Below, piece after piece: positions 44,017-64,000 of a DNA stretch of 64,000 bases. A program made the position numbers and the translations under genes. The stretch comes from Lentisphaerae bacterium GWF2_49_21 (GTDB lineage: Bacteria > Verrucomicrobiota > Lentisphaeria > Victivallales > GWF2-50-93): contig MHBH01000017.1 in the NCBI GenBank assembly GCA_001804805.1, forward strand, positions 62,001-126,000, written 5' to 3'. Each line of letters begins with the position of its first letter. Position 1 is the first letter of the stretch. The notes below the pieces were generated by a model, which was not told where the DNA came from, searched no databases, and saw only the letters and a program-made list of their open reading frames with translations.

Positions 44017-44883
44017 TTAATATTCTTCTATCTGGTAATCGAAGGCCTTGTGGCCTGAGGAACCTGTCGTGTTCCTGCAAAAGTAATAGGTGCTGTAGTT
44101 TTCCAGCACGACCTTGCCCGTGTCGGTTATATACTTAGTTGATACCAGCCCAATTGCATGTCCATCGTAAAAAACCGTAGGCCGGCATTTCTGCTTGTGC
44201 CATGGATATCCTCCGTAGACATTTGGGCATTCGAGGTGGCTTGGGTGCCACCAGTAGCGTTCTCCGCATAACTGGAACGGCGTACGTTCCGGCTTGCTGA
44301 AATGGGTGATAAGGAAATTGAACGGGGGTTCGACATCCGGTGTGGCGGAGGGGGTGAACCATCGCCCACCACCGGTGTTGTAATGTTCCCAGTTGCCCCA
44401 GTATGAATTGTTTTTCCGGGAACCTGCACCTCCAGTGAGGAGATAATTCCCGTCGTAATTGCCGGTACTTGGGTTGGCGCCGATGTAATGTGAGGGGCAT
44501 ATCCATATCCCCCCATGTGCGTTGTTTCCAGTGTTCGCACCTTTGCCGGTATAATCTTCAAGCAACCATTCCCTGATGGTTCCATTGACACCGCGGTCAT
44601 AACCTGAACCTGATACCAGTCGCACAGGCTGGGACATGTTGTAGTCGGTGCCATAGACATGCAACGCAACGCCGATTTGCTTGAGGTTGTTCAGGCAGCC
44701 GGAGCGGTGGGCCATGTCCTTCGCATTCTGAAGCGCTGGAAGAAGCATCGCGGCCAGGATTGCGATGATCGCAATCACCACCAAGAGTTCGATAAGCGTG
44801 AAAACACTTCTCGAACTTGCCTCCGGATGAGAGGCTACGGCTGGCGCGGCCAGAAGCTCAATCGGTGTGAATTGGCTTTTCAC
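44017..44883 (-). CDS. Pseudopilin-like protein with degenerate first leader motif
   Basis: 288 residues, starting at GTG with AGGACG upstream. The leader carries [13 protein letters not shown], then ASSRSV and the complete [19 protein letters not shown]. The globular part includes GIWICPSHY and [16 protein letters not shown] (His-to-DG spacing of 10 rather than 9), and ends FDYQIEEY. It is the closest relative of the truncated gene at 41586-41918. Part of a three-gene series with 15-base gaps. Confidence 0.87.
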
Positions 44884-44898
44884 AAGAGCGTCCTATAG

Positions 44899-45717
44899 TT
44901 AATTTTCATCGATCCAGAAATCCCACGGGGAATGAGGTGGTGATCCGCCACCGGATCCAAGATGAAATGAGCTGTATGGACCGGTGAGGATATTCTGATA
45001 TCCGTGAGCCGTGTAATTATAGGAGACCAATGCAAAGACGTGACCGTCTGCGAATGCAGTCGGTCTTGGCCCATATGCGTTTTTCTTGTGCCAGCTGGCC
45101 CCGCCGAGGGTGTTGTTGGTGACGTTGCCATCAGTCTTTGCCAAAGCCCATCCGCCCATTCGCCTGGAGCAGAACTGCAGCGGGGATCCGGAGGGATTAT
45201 GCTTGAAGGTTGAAAGTTTAATTGCATTATCGTTAGGGGTCAGCTGATCCGTGTTCATCGACGAGCCGACATAATGATAATACAATCCTTCATAGCAGTT
45301 GGAGGCGTAGGCCCCATAATTATCATCGTGGTTGTATTTGCCGCCCTGGTAGTTTGGATTGAAGGATACAGGGGAAGCTGCGCAGATCCAGACAGGATGT
45401 CCAGTGGCGAGATGTGCGGCCGTAGGGAGCTTCGAATTCACATACGGTGCCAGGGCGACTTCCAGTCCCCTGTGCATATAGCCCCATGTAGACCAGCTGG
45501 AATTGGATGCGACCCGGTCGCATGGCATATACATGTTGAAGTCATCGGCATAGGAATGATAGGAAAGGCCGACCTGCTTTAGATTGTTGGTGCAGGATAT
45601 CATGTGAGCGTGGGCTTTTGCCTGTTGGAGTGCCGGCAGTAGCATGGCTGCGAGGATTGCGATGATCGCAATCACCACGAGAAGCTCGATCAGGGTGAAT
45701 TTATTTTGAGCTCTCAT
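44899..45717 (-). CDS. Pseudopilin-like protein with simple leader
   Basis: 272 residues. Here the leader is short and standard (MRAQNK then [19 protein letters not shown]), unlike its downstream neighbours. The body has PVWICAASP, a [10 protein letters not shown] segment (His spaced 13 residues before DG) and the C-terminus WDFWIDEN. It is the first gene of the minus-strand pseudopilin series, and its upstream region (45718-45807) separates it from the next minus-strand gene. It shows the ancestral form without repeat insertion. Confidence 0.88.
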
Positions 45718-53558: not shown

Positions 53559-54488
53559 ATGTTCCGACTTTCAAAGATAGCTGCCCTGTCACTGCTTGTG
53601 GCGTTTTCATTTGCGGCCGCAGCCCAGAACAAGGACGAATCCTTGTTGAAAAAGGGCTGGCTGGAATACAGGTTCCATGAGGTCAAGAAGGCCAGGAGCT
53701 ATTTTGAAGAGGCTGAAAAGAAGGCAGGGAACAACAAGGAGGAACTGCTCCAGGCTCTTACCGGACAGGCCTTCTGCCACCAGTTCCTGATGAAGAACAG
53801 CGTCAAGGCGGATAATTTCGAACAGGCCGCCGCCTTATATGACAGATGCATCAAGGAGGCCGGCTCCGACCACAAGTATATCCTCCTCTGGAAATCCATG
53901 AAGGCTGAATGCCTGTATAAGTTATCCGTCCTTGAACCGGATCCTGCGAAGGACAGCGAGGCCGAGGCTCTTTGGCAGGAGGTCCGGCAGAAGGATGAAA
54001 ACTCTGTCTTTGCACAGGACGCAATGCTTGCGAAGGCACTGCTGCAGACCGAGGACGTGAATGATGAAAAAGTCACGTCCTTCTGCGGAGATATGGAGAA
54101 ATACCTGGTTCCCTATAAGAAGGAAGGGAGGAAGATTGATGTCGTGAATGACAAGAAGGCCATGCTTGCCCCTGTCATGGCGACATATCTTTACAACATA
54201 TACTACTACCGCAATGACTTCCGGAAGGGCGTTGATGCGCTCATCGACTACTGCAAGTTCGGGCCTACCAGCTTCCAATACAAGGCCACCGCCTATTTCA
54301 AGGTCGCCAGGATATCTGAAACCAGATGCGCCGACAACAAGACCGCGATCGAATACTATACGAAGTTCTTCAAGGAGTGCGGAAGCGACAGCAGATCCTA
54401 TTATGCCATGGAAAGGGCGAAGCTGCTGGGAGGACCTGCAGCTGCAACTGCAGATGAGTCCGCGAAGTTCAAGAAGGAAGGCGAATAA
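53559..54488 (+). CDS. Secreted TPR-like protein of the sugar transporter operon
   Basis: 309 residues with a signal peptide ending at AAAAQ. The body consists of helix pairs resembling tetratricopeptide repeats (LLKKGWLEYRFHEVKKARSYFEEAEKK ... AIEYYTKFFKECG). Its stop overlaps the next gene's start (TAATG), so translation is coupled to the binding protein. A structural or assembly role near the transporter is plausible; no enzyme motif is seen. Confidence 0.78.
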   Translation: MFRLSKIAALSLLVAFSFAAAAQNKDESLLKKGWLEYRFHEVKKARSYFEEAEKKAGNNKEELLQALTGQAFCHQFLMKNSVKADNFEQAAALYDRCIKEAGSDHKYILLWKSMKAECLYKLSVLEPDPAKDSEAEALWQEVRQKDENSVFAQDAMLAKALLQTEDVNDEKVTSFCGDMEKYLVPYKKEGRKIDVVNDKKAMLAPVMATYLYNIYYYRNDFRKGVDALIDYCKFGPTSFQYKATAYFKVARISETRCADNKTAIEYYTKFFKECGSDSRSYYAMERAKLLGGPAAATADESAKFKKEGE

Positions 54489-56623
54489 TGGCTGAAAATA
54501 AAATAGGCGAGATGGAATCCAGGATCTCCTTTGTGAACTACATAGGACTCGCCATTCTGCTTGTATGCTATGTTGGAGCGCTCTGGAATGTCTATAAGAT
54601 CAAGGAGGATGAGCTGATCCTCAAGAAGAAGGTCATAAGGCTCTGCCACTGGCAGCTGGAGCTCGGTATAAAAGACGCTCTGGAGGAAATGATCGGCAGG
54701 TACGAGAAGACCCATCCCGATATCAAGATCATACAGATTCCGGTGACTGAGCGCGCCTATGCCCAGTGGGTGACGACACAGCTTATCGGCAGGACCGCGC
54801 CGGATCTGGTCGAGCTCGGATTCTTCGACGTCAAGCTTTATCTAGGAAGATATTTCCAGCCGATCACCGATGAGCTGCGCCAGCCCAACCCCTACAACAA
54901 GGACAACGATTTCAAGGATACTCCATGGATGGATACTTTCACCGACGGGCTGCAGAACAGCTATATCCCCGAGCTCCTCGATTATTACGCCGTCGGATTC
55001 AGCCAGTTCACCGTGAGGATATTCTACAATAAGACACTAATGAAAAAGATTCTGGAAAGGGATGATCCGCCGAAGACGCTTGAGCAGCTCTTCAGGGACT
55101 GTGAAAAGATACAGGAGTATGTAAAAACTAAAAACGCCGAAGTTGAGGCATTCAACAGCAAGCAGTCTTCAAAAGGCAGTTCGTGGAATATTTTTTCATC
55201 GCCGAAGTTGAAGTCGAAGATGCCTCTCGTCCCCATAGCCTCCTCAAGATACCAGGTGGGGCTTTTCCGTACCAGGTATGCAGGAATGCTTTCCGCCGAC
55301 AGATGCCTGGACATCGACTTCGGCTGTGACGGATCCGCCAACTACTACGATGTCCTCCAGGCGATGTTGTCCGGGAAACTGACATTGCAGGACGAGAAAT
55401 TCAGGATCTACAACGAGCTGACACGGAAGCTTTCAAGCTATTTTAATCCGGGATTCATGTCAGTTGACAGGATGGATGCGGGTTTTTCCTTCGTCCAGGG
55501 CAGCGCTGTCATGATAACTTCGGGAAGCTGGGATGCGAGTTCATACATCAAGAAGATCAACGATCAGCCGTTCGGAGACATCATAGTCTCGGTGAATGAC
55601 AAGCCTGTTTCAAATGCGGCTGACGCTTCAAGGCTGATGATTGATGCCGCCAGGTCAGGTGCTAAATCCGTAATTCTACATGTCAACCGCGAGGGGGACG
55701 TGAAAAAGGTGACCGTATATCCCGATGCAAAGGGTGAGACCCTCTGGGATTCATACGGGATCAAGGTCGAGGACTGTGCCGATGCAAAGGGCAGGCATGT
55801 GCCGGTGGTGACGGAATTGGATTCTGTTTCGCCTGCGGCCAATGCGGGAATGACACGCAAAAGGAGCTTTGATGTCGGCATCTTTGATTTCCCCCTGCCA
55901 ACAAAGGATGATCCGACCTATGGCAAATATGTGGTTGGAAGAGTAGTTGAGAGCACGGACACCGGATTCAAGTTCGGGATTACCAAATTCACCGAGCACA
56001 AGGCCGAATGCATAGACTTCTTCCAGTTCTGCACGACTCCTGAGAACAACCAGAAGATGAATGAGATAGCGCAGTGGATACCGGCGGTCAAAGGAGCGAA
56101 GCCCACCAAGTTCCTGGAGGCGTTCGTGCCCAATTTCAGGGGATACTGGGGTTATCTGAATTTCATGATGGGATCAAAGACTGACATGCTCGAAAAACAG
56201 ACCTTCTGGCCTTACGTGTCAGGGGAGAACGATTATGCGAAATATCTTAACGCACTCGCCAGCGCGATGCCGAACGCAGCGGCCAATGATTATATCGAAC
56301 TCATAAGGAAGTGCCGGGAAAGCGTTCCTGACAAGCAGGTCTTCAGGAGCTTCTATCTGGCGCAATACATGTTCCCGGAGAGCTTTGTCGATGCCAAGGC
56401 CGGAAATGCCGCTGAAATGGAGAAGCTTGCAGGGAAGAAGAGGAACGAGGCGGCGGTCAAGTTTGTTGCGAGCTGGGACAACCTGGTGGGCTTTGCACTG
56501 GATGAGATGAGGATCAAGGCGATGATGGCGCCACGTTTCAAGGACAAGGACAACAACAGCTTCAGCAAGGCCTTCTTCTCCGAATATGAAAGGCTTTCCA
56601 ATATGAGCGGAGGGAAAAAGTAA
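54488..56623 (+). CDS. Membrane-tethered ABC sugar-binding protein with inserted PDZ-like segment
   Basis: 711 residues. A single N-terminal transmembrane anchor (~17-35) replaces the usual cleavable signal. The body is an extracellular solute-binding protein of family 1 (LELGIKDALEEMIGRYEKTHPDIKI ... RTAPDLVELG ... ITSGSWDASSYIKK). At residues ~362-460 the binding-protein fold is interrupted: first FGDIIVSVNDKPVSNAADA...VILHVNREGD, typical of the second half of a PDZ domain, then PVVTELDSVSPAANAGM, typical of the first half. The fold then resumes at FDVGIFDFPLP. It is coupled to a TPR gene before it and to the permease after it (TAATG both times). Confidence 0.8.
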   Translation: MAENKIGEMESRISFVNYIGLAILLVCYVGALWNVYKIKEDELILKKKVIRLCHWQLELGIKDALEEMIGRYEKTHPDIKIIQIPVTERAYAQWVTTQLIGRTAPDLVELGFFDVKLYLGRYFQPITDELRQPNPYNKDNDFKDTPWMDTFTDGLQNSYIPELLDYYAVGFSQFTVRIFYNKTLMKKILERDDPPKTLEQLFRDCEKIQEYVKTKNAEVEAFNSKQSSKGSSWNIFSSPKLKSKMPLVPIASSRYQVGLFRTRYAGMLSADRCLDIDFGCDGSANYYDVLQAMLSGKLTLQDEKFRIYNELTRKLSSYFNPGFMSVDRMDAGFSFVQGSAVMITSGSWDASSYIKKINDQPFGDIIVSVNDKPVSNAADASRLMIDAARSGAKSVILHVNREGDVKKVTVYPDAKGETLWDSYGIKVEDCADAKGRHVPVVTELDSVSPAANAGMTRKRSFDVGIFDFPLPTKDDPTYGKYVVGRVVESTDTGFKFGITKFTEHKAECIDFFQFCTTPENNQKMNEIAQWIPAVKGAKPTKFLEAFVPNFRGYWGYLNFMMGSKTDMLEKQTFWPYVSGENDYAKYLNALASAMPNAAANDYIELIRKCRESVPDKQVFRSFYLAQYMFPESFVDAKAGNAAEMEKLAGKKRNEAAVKFVASWDNLVGFALDEMRIKAMMAPRFKDKDNNSFSKAFFSEYERLSNMSGGKK

Positions 56624-58077
56624 TGCCAAGGGATATCGGATTTAAAAGGGTAAAACATTACTGGAAGCTTTATCTCTTCCTCCTTCCAAGCGTCCTGCTT
56701 GTCGCCGTGTTTTCATATTATCCCGCGATAAGCGCGATGTACCATTCCTTCTTCCGCTGGAACGGCGAGGATATCAACTACTGGGTGGGGCTGGAGAATT
56801 TCAAGAAGGTGCTCGGAGTCATTACGCCATGGGTTGTCCTTTTCATCCTCTTCTATCTTGTGATCATCTATGCTAAGGAGAAAAATCTCCTGTCATATGT
56901 GCTGAGATTTGTTTCCGGAATCATATGCTTGGCGGTGACTTCAGTGCTGCTGGCCTACAAGGGATTTGTATTTTTAACGCCATTTTCATTTGCCTATCTT
57001 TATACGAACATCTCCCAGACGGTGATAGCCGTAGTCTTCTGGGGTTTCTGGCTTCTGGTGTTCCAGTTCCTGGTCAGCGAGGAAAGCGAGAACAAGTGGA
57101 TGTATCTCATGACGACTGTCTGCTTCTTCATTGCTTCAATAATGAAGATCCTCGGTTTTGCAGCAATTTTTTCATTCTCGGCGATATTGCTCCTTGTCGG
57201 ACTTGCATTATGGCTTGTCCCCGCCATGAACAAGCTCAAGACAATAGAGATCGCCAGGACCATTCATGCATTCACATCTATTTCCATCGCCTTCTGGGCT
57301 CTCGGTGCATATAGCGGCGGCGATCCGATAATGTGGGGCGGCTTCTACGTGCTGGCCATCCTGATCGTATTCAATATAGTCAAGATGTTCCCTTCGATAG
57401 TCACCGCCGTGGTCGTACACAGGATCAAAAGCGATGCACTGAACTACTGGTACCGCGTCCTATTTGTAATACCGATGATCATCCCGGGCATGGTCTACCT
57501 CCTGATCTGGAAATTCTTCTTCAATCCGAATGAAGGAATATTCAACAGGATACTTGTCTACACGAAGGTCATGGATGTGCTTGTGTATATGGACGGCATC
57601 CTTGGCTGGGGCGGTGTATTCAAGGAAGGCGTGATGCCTGTATGGCTTGGTAATGAGCACCTCGTGCTTCCTGCACTCATCCTATGGGGATTCCCCTGGG
57701 TCGGAGTCGTCGGCGTCCTAATATATCTTGCCGGACTCCAGGGAATCGACACGAGCGTCTATGAGGCTGCCGAGCTCGACGGCGCGTCCGCCATCCAGAA
57801 GTTCACGCACATTGAAATGCCGCTGATCATGACCCAGGTCAGGATCAACCTCGTGCTGATGGTTATCGGTACACTGCAGGCTTATGCGCACATCCTCATC
57901 CTCTTCGACATCGACGGCGGTCCCAACGGCAAGCTGATGATACCCGGACTATACATGTTCCGCGAAGCGTTCCGTGAGGGAAGGGCCGGCTATGCATGTG
58001 CAATCGGACTCATAATATTCTTCCTGATCCTGATCCTGACTGAACTCAACAACCGCTATATCAGAGTGGAGAAATAA
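56623..58077 (+). CDS. Sugar ABC transporter permease, MalF type, with extra membrane helices
   Basis: 484 residues, longer than most sugar permeases (~290-300). After the first helix (LYLFLLPSVLLVAVFSYYP) comes an insert of about 190 residues holding several further transmembrane segments before the ordinary permease core. The EAA loop (YEAAELDGASAIQKFTHIEMPLI) that docks on the ATPase is intact. The start overlaps the stop of the binding protein by one base. No ATPase gene follows, so a shared MsmX-like ATPase encoded elsewhere is likely. Confidence 0.88.
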   Translation: MPRDIGFKRVKHYWKLYLFLLPSVLLVAVFSYYPAISAMYHSFFRWNGEDINYWVGLENFKKVLGVITPWVVLFILFYLVIIYAKEKNLLSYVLRFVSGIICLAVTSVLLAYKGFVFLTPFSFAYLYTNISQTVIAVVFWGFWLLVFQFLVSEESENKWMYLMTTVCFFIASIMKILGFAAIFSFSAILLLVGLALWLVPAMNKLKTIEIARTIHAFTSISIAFWALGAYSGGDPIMWGGFYVLAILIVFNIVKMFPSIVTAVVVHRIKSDALNYWYRVLFVIPMIIPGMVYLLIWKFFFNPNEGIFNRILVYTKVMDVLVYMDGILGWGGVFKEGVMPVWLGNEHLVLPALILWGFPWVGVVGVLIYLAGLQGIDTSVYEAAELDGASAIQKFTHIEMPLIMTQVRINLVLMVIGTLQAYAHILILFDIDGGPNGKLMIPGLYMFREAFREGRAGYACAIGLIIFFLILILTELNNRYIRVEK

Positions 58078-58082
58078 CAAAC

Positions 58083-58922
58083 ATGAAAATGAACGCATAC
58101 AGGACCAAGACGCTGCTGAGCGAGTTGATGAAGCATTTCTTCATACTCTTCATCCTCTCGATGTCACTCTTCCCGTTCTATGTCATGGTCGCGACAAGCG
58201 GAAAGACCAACGCCCAGTTCGTGGGAAATCCCTGGTCGTTCATGTTCCCCTTCCACTTCGAGAACTATGTGTATGCCTGGGGAATGGTATATAAATACAT
58301 ATTCAATACTATATTCATCTGCGTGACGACCATCTTCTTCACTATGTTCCTCACTCTCAATGCGGCATACTTCTTTGCCAGATTCAAGATGCCGGGATCA
58401 AGATTCTTCTGGTACTTCTTCCTGATCCTGATGCTCATGCCGGGAGTTGCAAACCTGATCCCGTTGTTCGTATTGTTGAAGGATATGAACCTCCTCAACA
58501 CATTCTGGGCCCTGATCATCGTGCATGTCGCAGGAGGACAGATTGTCCAGATATACATCCTCAGGAACTTCATCGAGGACATACCGCAGGATCTCTTCGA
58601 CGCAGCCGAAGTCGACGGCGCCTCGCACCTCCAGCAGGTCTACAACATTGTCTTCCCGATGTCCGGAAGCATCCTGTCGACATTGGGAATCCTCCAGTTC
58701 ATCGGACTGTGGAACGATTATATCCTGCCTCTCGTCGTCATCCGCGACGACAGCATGCTGCCGATGGCCGTCGGACTCGTAAGGATGGATTCAGCCTATG
58801 TCAAGGAATGGGGACAGCTGATGGCCGGTTATACTATCGCCAGCATCCCGATGATACTGATCTTCCTTTTCACCATGCGCCTCTTCGTGAAAGGACTCTC
58901 CGCCGGCGCGATCAAAGGATGA
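58083..58922 (+). CDS. Sugar ABC transporter permease, MalG type
   Basis: 279 residues with six predicted membrane helices and the EAA loop FDAAEVDGASHLQQVYNIVFPM. It pairs with the preceding MalF-type permease to form the import channel for an oligosaccharide. Five bases separate the genes. Length is normal for the family. Confidence 0.92.
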   Translation: MKMNAYRTKTLLSELMKHFFILFILSMSLFPFYVMVATSGKTNAQFVGNPWSFMFPFHFENYVYAWGMVYKYIFNTIFICVTTIFFTMFLTLNAAYFFARFKMPGSRFFWYFFLILMLMPGVANLIPLFVLLKDMNLLNTFWALIIVHVAGGQIVQIYILRNFIEDIPQDLFDAAEVDGASHLQQVYNIVFPMSGSILSTLGILQFIGLWNDYILPLVVIRDDSMLPMAVGLVRMDSAYVKEWGQLMAGYTIASIPMILIFLFTMRLFVKGLSAGAIKG

Positions 58923-58949: not shown

Positions 58950-60518
58950 ATGGCTGAGATAAAACATAATCTCTTAAGACACAGTTCCGGAGTTTCATTC
59001 GCTACAATTGTCTCCCGCATCCTCGGGCTCGCGCGCGAAATGCTCCTCTCCAGGATTATCGGCGGCAAGGAGCTCATGACCGCCTGGGCCATGGGCTTCA
59101 TGATCCCGAATCTTCTCCGCAGGCTCCTGGGCGAGGGGGCCCTCGGCACCGCCATCGTCCCGATAATGACCTATACCTTTGAGCGTGAGGACAAGGAGTC
59201 CGCCAGGAAGAAACTGACTGTCATCACCGCTGTACTCGGAATAATCCTTGCGATAATATGCATAATCGTCTCAGGGATTGCCCTTGCCGCAATACCATTC
59301 CTCGAATCAGCTCCGGCGCGCGTCCTCATGACGTTCAAGCTGATCCCCGTATTGATGCCATATTCCTTTTTCATCTGTCTGATCGGAATATTCGGTTCCG
59401 TGATGAACAGCATGAACAGGTATTTCCTTCCTGCAGTCGCATCAATAACGCTCAACCTCGTAATGATATTATGCCTCGTCTTCGTCTGCCCGTACTACAG
59501 CTCCACTCCGATAAACATGATTTATGCTTTGTCGATCGCCGTCCTGGCGTCCGGCGTTCTCCAGCTCGTGATGATGCTCTGGCTGCTTGAACGGGATGGC
59601 ATGCTGCCTTCAGCCCGGGTATCCTCGCTCTTCTCCCAGCCCGTTGTGAAGGAACTGTGGCACCTCACGCTTCCCGGAATCATCGGCGCCTCCTTCCTGC
59701 AGATAAGCTTCGTGATCGACAGGATGATGGCGTGCTATATCAGCGATTACGCGGTCCCGGCGCTTTACTTCTCGGACAGGCTGATCGATCTTCCTATCGG
59801 AGTCTTTGCCGTCGCGATGGGCTCTGTCGTGCTTACAGAACTCTCAAGGTATGCAGCCAAGAACGATATCGCCGGCATGCTTTCATCCTTCAAGCACGCA
59901 TTGGAGAATATTTTATTTCTCTGCATTCCCGTGGCGCTGTTCACGCTCGTATTCAGCAAGCCTCTTGTCCATGTCTTTTACTACGGCGGCAAGTTCGGTG
60001 ATCGTGAAGTCGCGGAAACTGTCTGGGCAATGCTTTTCTATGCGGCTGGCATTCCCGCGTTCTCCGCAATAAAGATAATAGTCTCCGGATTCCATTCGAG
60101 AAAGGACATGAAGACTCCTGTCAAGGTCGCAGTGTCCTGTCTTGTCCTCAACGTGATCCTCAATCTTATACTCATGTGGCCTTTGAGGCAGGGCGGCATA
60201 GCGCTTTCGACGACCATCTGTTCCTTCCTGAACTGTTCAATCCTGCTTTACCTGCTTAGAAAGCAGCTTGGCACAATTCATCTCAGGCAGATCATTCCGT
60301 CGGCATTGAGGACAGTGTTGATTTCATTGCTCGCACTGGCTGCTGCATATTCCGTCTACCTTGGAACAGCCACGATCCAGCTGAAGTCCCTGCCGAGGGA
60401 TATCGTACCGCTTACGCTGACCGGCTCCGTGTTCGTAGCGATCTATATGATTTTTTCCCTGCTCTTCAAAAGCGCCGAGGCCAGGGAATGGCTGAGGGTG
60501 CTGCACATCAGGAAATAA
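58950..60518 (+). CDS. murJ: Lipid II flippase MurJ
   Basis: 522 residues, about 14 membrane helices. N-terminal GVSFATIVSRILGLAREMLLSRIIG and GEGALGTAIVPIMTY are MurJ/MviN hallmarks. The family moves lipid II across the cytoplasmic membrane for peptidoglycan synthesis. It lies 27 bases after the sugar permease on the same strand, probably sharing its transcript, an unusual pairing for a cell-wall gene. Confidence 0.93.
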   Translation: MAEIKHNLLRHSSGVSFATIVSRILGLAREMLLSRIIGGKELMTAWAMGFMIPNLLRRLLGEGALGTAIVPIMTYTFEREDKESARKKLTVITAVLGIILAIICIIVSGIALAAIPFLESAPARVLMTFKLIPVLMPYSFFICLIGIFGSVMNSMNRYFLPAVASITLNLVMILCLVFVCPYYSSTPINMIYALSIAVLASGVLQLVMMLWLLERDGMLPSARVSSLFSQPVVKELWHLTLPGIIGASFLQISFVIDRMMACYISDYAVPALYFSDRLIDLPIGVFAVAMGSVVLTELSRYAAKNDIAGMLSSFKHALENILFLCIPVALFTLVFSKPLVHVFYYGGKFGDREVAETVWAMLFYAAGIPAFSAIKIIVSGFHSRKDMKTPVKVAVSCLVLNVILNLILMWPLRQGGIALSTTICSFLNCSILLYLLRKQLGTIHLRQIIPSALRTVLISLLALAAAYSVYLGTATIQLKSLPRDIVPLTLTGSVFVAIYMIFSLLFKSAEAREWLRVLHIRK

Positions 60519-63578: not shown

Positions 63579-64000
63579 ATGGCAAACACCAGGAAATTCA
63601 CTTTGATTGAGCTTCTCGTGGTAATTGCGATCATCGCGATACTTGCGGCAATGCTCCTCCCGGCGCTCCAGCAGGCCAAGGAGACGGCCTTTTCGGCGTT
63701 ATGCAAGAACAATCTGAAACAGCTCGGGCTTTGCTGGCACATGTATACGGAGGACTATGCAGATTGGACGCCGAACGCGGGGTGGGCTGTGAATTCCGCG
63801 GCGGGGGATCCGCCGGCCTGGGCGAACCAGTATGACGACTATCTGTTTCCAGGGAGGGTCATGCCTTCGGACGGGAACAGGATAATAAAGACTGAGCTTT
63901 TCAAGTGTCCGATGCTCATAAAGAAAATACCGGAGACGAGATTCTGGGAAGGTACCAGATACAACGACATTTATGGCAAGGTGCTGAGATACTGCCTTGG
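63579..64000 (+). CDS. Pseudopilin-like protein, N-terminal part (runs off the window)
   Basis: ATG 63579 followed by ANTRK and the full [19 protein letters not shown] motif, then [35 protein letters not shown], as in the other pseudopilins here. The leader is short and simple. 140 codons are open to the window edge. It follows the GntR gene by 18 bases. Confidence 0.9.

Follow-up and report, generated by a model that had tools for sequence, protein, structure and literature searches.

A putative circularly permuted PDZ domain within a membrane-anchored family 1 solute-binding protein of the Lentisphaeria

Family 1 solute-binding proteins are usually free or lipid-anchored, and it is by their own two lobes that solute-binding proteins normally engage the permease. 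Proteases of the RseP and DegP types have roles in envelope stress. Among natural domain insertions, PDZ is the most promiscuous insert superfamily, with 11 parent types (PMC12328240). Permuted forms of the domain have been described as well: in the D1 processing protease (D1p) strand 1 is moved behind strand 6 (PMC3503759), and a preprint reports four natural permuted PDZ forms (PMC12667903). PDZ insertions and PDZ permutants are each known, and our literature search returned no report of a PDZ inside a solute-binding protein, that is, of the two combined in such a receptor.

Here we describe a locus in which they appear to be combined. It lies in a window of 64,000 nucleotides (by which we mean the whole stretch of DNA that was analysed) from Lentisphaerae bacterium GWF2_49_21, whose genome of 5.9 Mb encodes a second system of the same kind, with a binding protein of about 565 residues. 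The operon leads from a TPR protein to the binding protein, then to a MalF-like and finally to a MalG-like permease. Its features are as follows.

53559 to 54488, forward strand: TPR protein with a signal peptide, directly upstream of the receptor gene (TPR_14, 2.5e-6)
54488 to 56623, forward strand: family 1 solute-binding protein with the insert, 711 amino acids (open reading frame; SBP_bac_1 5.7e-15, SBP_bac_8 8.7e-13)
54536 to 54595, forward strand: N-terminal hydrophobic anchor, about residues 17-36 (sequence and alignment with relatives)
55559 to 55861, plus or minus a few residues, forward strand: inserted, putatively permuted PDZ, about residues 358-458, some 101 residues (gap in 9 of 9 insert-free relatives; PDZ profiles)
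55565 to 55738, forward strand: putative second half of the PDZ, placed first, residues 360-417 (PDZ_2 profile positions 33-78)
55739 to 55861, forward strand: putative first half of the PDZ, placed last, residues 418-458 (matches PDZ_2 from position 4 only when moved to the front)
56623 to 58077, forward strand: MalF-like permease, 484 amino acids (BPD_transp_1 3e-11, residues 260-472)
56809 to 57306, forward strand: extra permease segment, about residues 63-228, with six predicted transmembrane helices, between the first transmembrane helix and the conserved core (alignment, hydropathy)
58083 to 58922, forward strand: MalG-like permease (BPD_transp_1 4.1e-13)

The SBP_bac_1 matches flank the PDZ segment on both sides and permease genes adjoin, which places the receptor in family 1. 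Its nearest named relative, 85% identical, is encoded by Lentisphaerae bacterium GWF2_50_93 and was the sole find of one contig scan.

To delimit the insertion, seven proteins with the PDZ segment were aligned with nine without it. The insert-free proteins run uninterrupted through the loop in question (e.g. MTTGTWDAMSLQQQA-KGNFTLGIMDFPMP), and so does L005, a paralog from the same genome, which reads TWDAMSLQQQA-KGNFTLGIMDFPMP. A previous sequence-only reading had held that about 100 residues interrupt the binding-protein fold and had placed them at 55571-55867; both points stand, the alignment moving the boundaries by no more than a few codons, to 55559-55861. Since the insert-free paralogs are clean, the possibility that the segment is part of the ordinary binding-protein fold in all relatives is ruled out. 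When aligned to solved binding proteins, the loop falls between the helix behind the G-W motif and the strand that leads to the P-x-P motif. By this placement the receptor, a membrane-anchored sugar-binding protein of family 1, would carry the putative PDZ in the loop behind its GxW helix.

Next, we asked what the inserted segment is. Residues 360-417 contain a strand (GDIIVSV), a helix (NAADASRLMIDAA) and two further strands (KSVILHVNREG and KKVTVYP), and residues 418-458 contain the strands YGIKVED and VPVVTELD followed by the helix SPAANAG. In native order the segment reads GDIIVSVNDKPV...VILHVNREGD...YGIKVED...VPVVTELDSVSPAANAG. Searched alone in this order, it matches PDZ_6 with 7e-7 and 29.3 bits (cut-off 27) and covers the second half of the model only; within the full-length receptor the PDZ match falls below the Pfam cut-off. 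When the last 41 residues are put in front, the segment matches PDZ_2 with 9.6e-8 and 32.6 bits (cut-off 27), over profile positions 4-78 of 80. In four orthologs searched with Pfam in both orders, the swap gains about 6 bits and the match becomes nearly full-length, and a rotation scan in steps of ten has its maximum at 60 residues, which corresponds to the swap of the halves.

These observations could be quantified with a local profile built from 29 canonical PDZ domains of related genomes. The seven orthologs score 33-45 bits in swapped order versus 19-34 bits in native order, and the mean score peaks at a rotation of 55-60%. The second half of the insert alone scores 8-13 bits, against model positions 3-33, and when second halves were shuffled, none of 300 reached the swapped score in any of the seven orthologs. 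Profile-to-profile comparisons behave in the same way: hhalign against the PDZ domains of the same genome aligns 49 columns (3e-8) in native and 67 columns (2e-12) in swapped order, and a PDB profile search gives 52.5 bits and 63 hits versus 59.8 bits and 123 hits. A chance similarity to PDZ is ruled out by the swap, rotation and shuffle tests. Invariant in all seven orthologs are G4 and D5, G65, S89, P90 and A91, and A94 and G95, which are hallmarks of PDZ domains; G65 is the glycine that precedes the groove strand. The strand YGIKVED and the helix NAADASRLMIDAA, which are predicted to line the peptide groove, are both present.

Taken together, the gap in the alignment, the swap, the rotation and the shuffles bear out at the sequence level what the earlier reading had proposed, and they support an insertion into the binding-protein fold of a PDZ in circularly permuted form. 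The opening of this PDZ would lie between the first helix (SPAxxAG) and the next strand (GDxI); the domain would have its natural ends joined and would fold as one compact domain with an intact peptide groove. Structure prediction with AlphaFold2 was based on two sequences only, the window and L034, and reached a pLDDT of 51 and a pTM of 0.40 for the insert and a pLDDT of 32 for the full-length receptor. A Foldseek search with this insert model found no PDZ, a result that is meaningless at such model confidence. Because the two-sequence predictions had low confidence, the assignment of a PDZ fold is carried by the sequence comparisons.

The native order also gives a hint as to the origin of the segment. 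The native-order profile aligns across the junction between PDZ1 and PDZ2 in DegP-like and GRASP structures, which fits an origin from a tandem, and it also matches continuously in two proteins of the phylum that read as a DegP-type and an RseP-type protease. A search of the class returned two weak hits that cover the insert only, and one of them, in genome G035, is the RseP-type tandem PDZ protein just mentioned. Probably, as judged from these alignments, the segment stems from a tandem array as in DegP or RseP: it would have been cut out of register, so as to comprise the second half of one PDZ and the first half of the next, and such a cut followed by insertion would yield a permuted segment in a single step.

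The same continuity, running from the second half of PDZ1 to the first half of PDZ2 as in DegP- and RseP-like proteins, would also be expected if the insert were two half-PDZs from a tandem array that swap with a second receptor molecule and thus form dimers. We consider this very improbable, as the joining linker of about 10 residues should let the halves close on themselves and exactly one domain equivalent, some 100 residues long, is retained in the orthologs.

We then looked at how the permuted PDZ is distributed. Insert and flanks together were found in eight of the 388 genomes sampled from the phylum, spread over five families. For the class (198 genomes) and for the order (137 genomes) the number is likewise eight; the viral contigs that we searched contained no relative. 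In a tree calculated with the insert removed, the eight PDZ receptors form one clade (99/100). The tree thereby points to a single origin of the insert in an ancestor belonging to the order, as one gain suffices.

The insert is under purifying selection and is freer to change than the receptor core. Between the window and L006, dN/dS is 0.10-0.13 for the insert versus 0.05-0.06 for the remainder of the protein. Identity of the insert is 71% between the window and its 85% identical relative and only 35-41% with distant orthologs. A dN/dS about twice that of the core and the low identity to distant orthologs, together with the promiscuity of PDZ as an insert mentioned above, are what one would expect of a tolerated passenger, i.e. 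a domain that landed in a permissive surface loop, folds, and is harmless or stabilising. On the other hand, although the proteins have diverged by about 50%, the insert has been kept in 8 of 8 orthologs with not a single loss, its dN/dS is still low, and the PDZ hallmarks are invariant, so we regard a mere passenger as unlikely.

If the permuted PDZ is retained for a function, it most plausibly serves the receptor as a module for docking or regulation, and the question is what it could bind. The first candidate is found in the neighbouring gene. In the PDZ loci the MalF-like permease has 480-495 residues, while in the insert-free loci it has 300 or is fused to MalG. The alignment attributes the difference to an extension of about 165-180 residues, in which averaged hydropathy indicates six extra helices; the extension is missing from the five permeases of insert-free loci that were aligned, and Pfam contains no match for it. 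A search for the extension through the 137 genomes of the order returned exactly the same eight genomes as the PDZ insert, always in the gene next to the receptor. This pairing is new here, and the extra permease segment had escaped the sequence-only reading. Since PDZ and extension share one operon and one origin, finding them together amounts to little more than one event, which is suggestive of contact and weak evidence for it. A separate observation concerns the insert-free sister systems L005, L050, L051, L052 and L057, where a single fusion protein of about 670-690 residues comprises the MalF-like and MalG-like parts.

The permease extension is the first candidate partner of the PDZ. Most plausibly, the PDZ would make contact with the extended permease on its periplasmic side, whereby it would hold or time the receptor on the channel. 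The proposal as a whole (a permuted PDZ gained once in a receptor loop, which docks or regulates and has its likeliest contact in the permease extension) is a tentative one, to which we give slightly less than an even chance.

Potentially, the PDZ could instead bind another periplasmic partner, such as the TPR protein, a periplasmic protease, or secreted or misfolded proteins by their C-termini. In this way the capture of nutrients would be linked to envelope stress or to an enzyme at the surface. The predicted groove strand YGIKVED and groove helix are compatible with such a role, the closest PDB relatives of the insert are the PDZ domains of RseP- and DegP-type proteases, and the TPR gene always adjoins the receptor gene. 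A connection to the TPR protein had in fact been suggested earlier, next to a putative sensing of peptide ends, and found no support: the TPR gene lies upstream of the receptor in 8 of 8 PDZ loci and equally in 8 of 8 insert-free loci. Moreover, no conserved hydrophobic end of the kind that a PDZ would bind was seen among the C-termini of the TPR proteins of the operons, which are mostly charged and unconserved, making a classical C-terminal ligand there unlikely. As a specific partner of the PDZ the TPR protein is therefore not supported. No gene is common to all eight PDZ loci beyond those for the TPR protein, the receptor and the permeases. Overall, we find a partner other than the permease rather doubtful.

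The membrane anchor, which the earlier reading had remarked on, is indeed present, while it is not special to the PDZ receptors: the alignment shows the same N-terminal anchor in their insert-free relatives. The coupling of an upstream TPR protein with the anchored binding-protein clan was seen in every locus examined (53559-54488 in the window, and L050 to L057).

As to what is transported, we could not find a conserved enzyme neighbour in the eight PDZ loci that points to a substrate. Because no sugar enzyme is common to the eight loci, a link between the importer and a catabolic locus nearby may not exist. A gene for a MurJ-like flippase adjoins the importer operon in three of the eight (the window, at 58950-60518, L044 and L049), and near the operon in the window there are several genes for prepilin-like proteins with a signature sequence (44020-45717 and 63579-63998).

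A bolder reading would see here an ABC importer of a distinct kind, whose PDZ and six-helix extension form a dedicated docking pair, with receptor and channel staying joined or being gated by a peptide signal, in addition to a PDZ permutant that is opened between helix 1 and the GD strand; this we consider possible, though on the unlikely side. If true, an interaction domain in one lobe together with a lineage-specific channel extension would amount to a new wiring of receptor and transporter. A natural PDZ that is inserted via the loop joining helix 1 to the GD strand, and that could plausibly have come from a tandem array, is also informative about the ways in which domains become permuted and inserted.

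How does the locus compare with the known systems? The known family 1 solute-binding proteins (PF01547; 4qrz, 9xor) align with the window's receptor over both lobes, the GxW motif and the strand that follows, while their loop after the GxW helix has no PDZ and that of the window's receptor has the putative one. Furthermore, this receptor and all relatives of its clan are held by a transmembrane helix instead of being free or lipid-anchored. The permeases share the core BPD_transp_1 domains of the MalF/MalG type (PF00528), from which the window's MalF-like subunit is set apart by an additional stretch of about 165 residues that is predicted to contain six helices.

The best PDB profile matches to the insert are the tandem PDZ domains of the RseP-type site-2 protease (3wkl, 9j82) and of the DegP type (7xs0), with which it has the strands, the helices and the motifs GDxI, SPA and AG in common. 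Those domains keep the ordinary bacterial order and flank or decorate a protease, whereas the insert is one permuted domain equivalent in a binding protein without a protease. With D1p and 2hga (MTH1368) it would share a PDZ fold with relocated termini. The fourth permuted form of PMC12667903 is presented there in a figure, and as far as that figure goes the insert may be identical to it. The protein of 2hga starts with VQIDSV and ends after YMGIRT, which puts its cut between the two strands that precede helix 1, while the cut of the insert falls between helix 1 and the GD strand and differs from the termini of both the D1p and the 2hga type.
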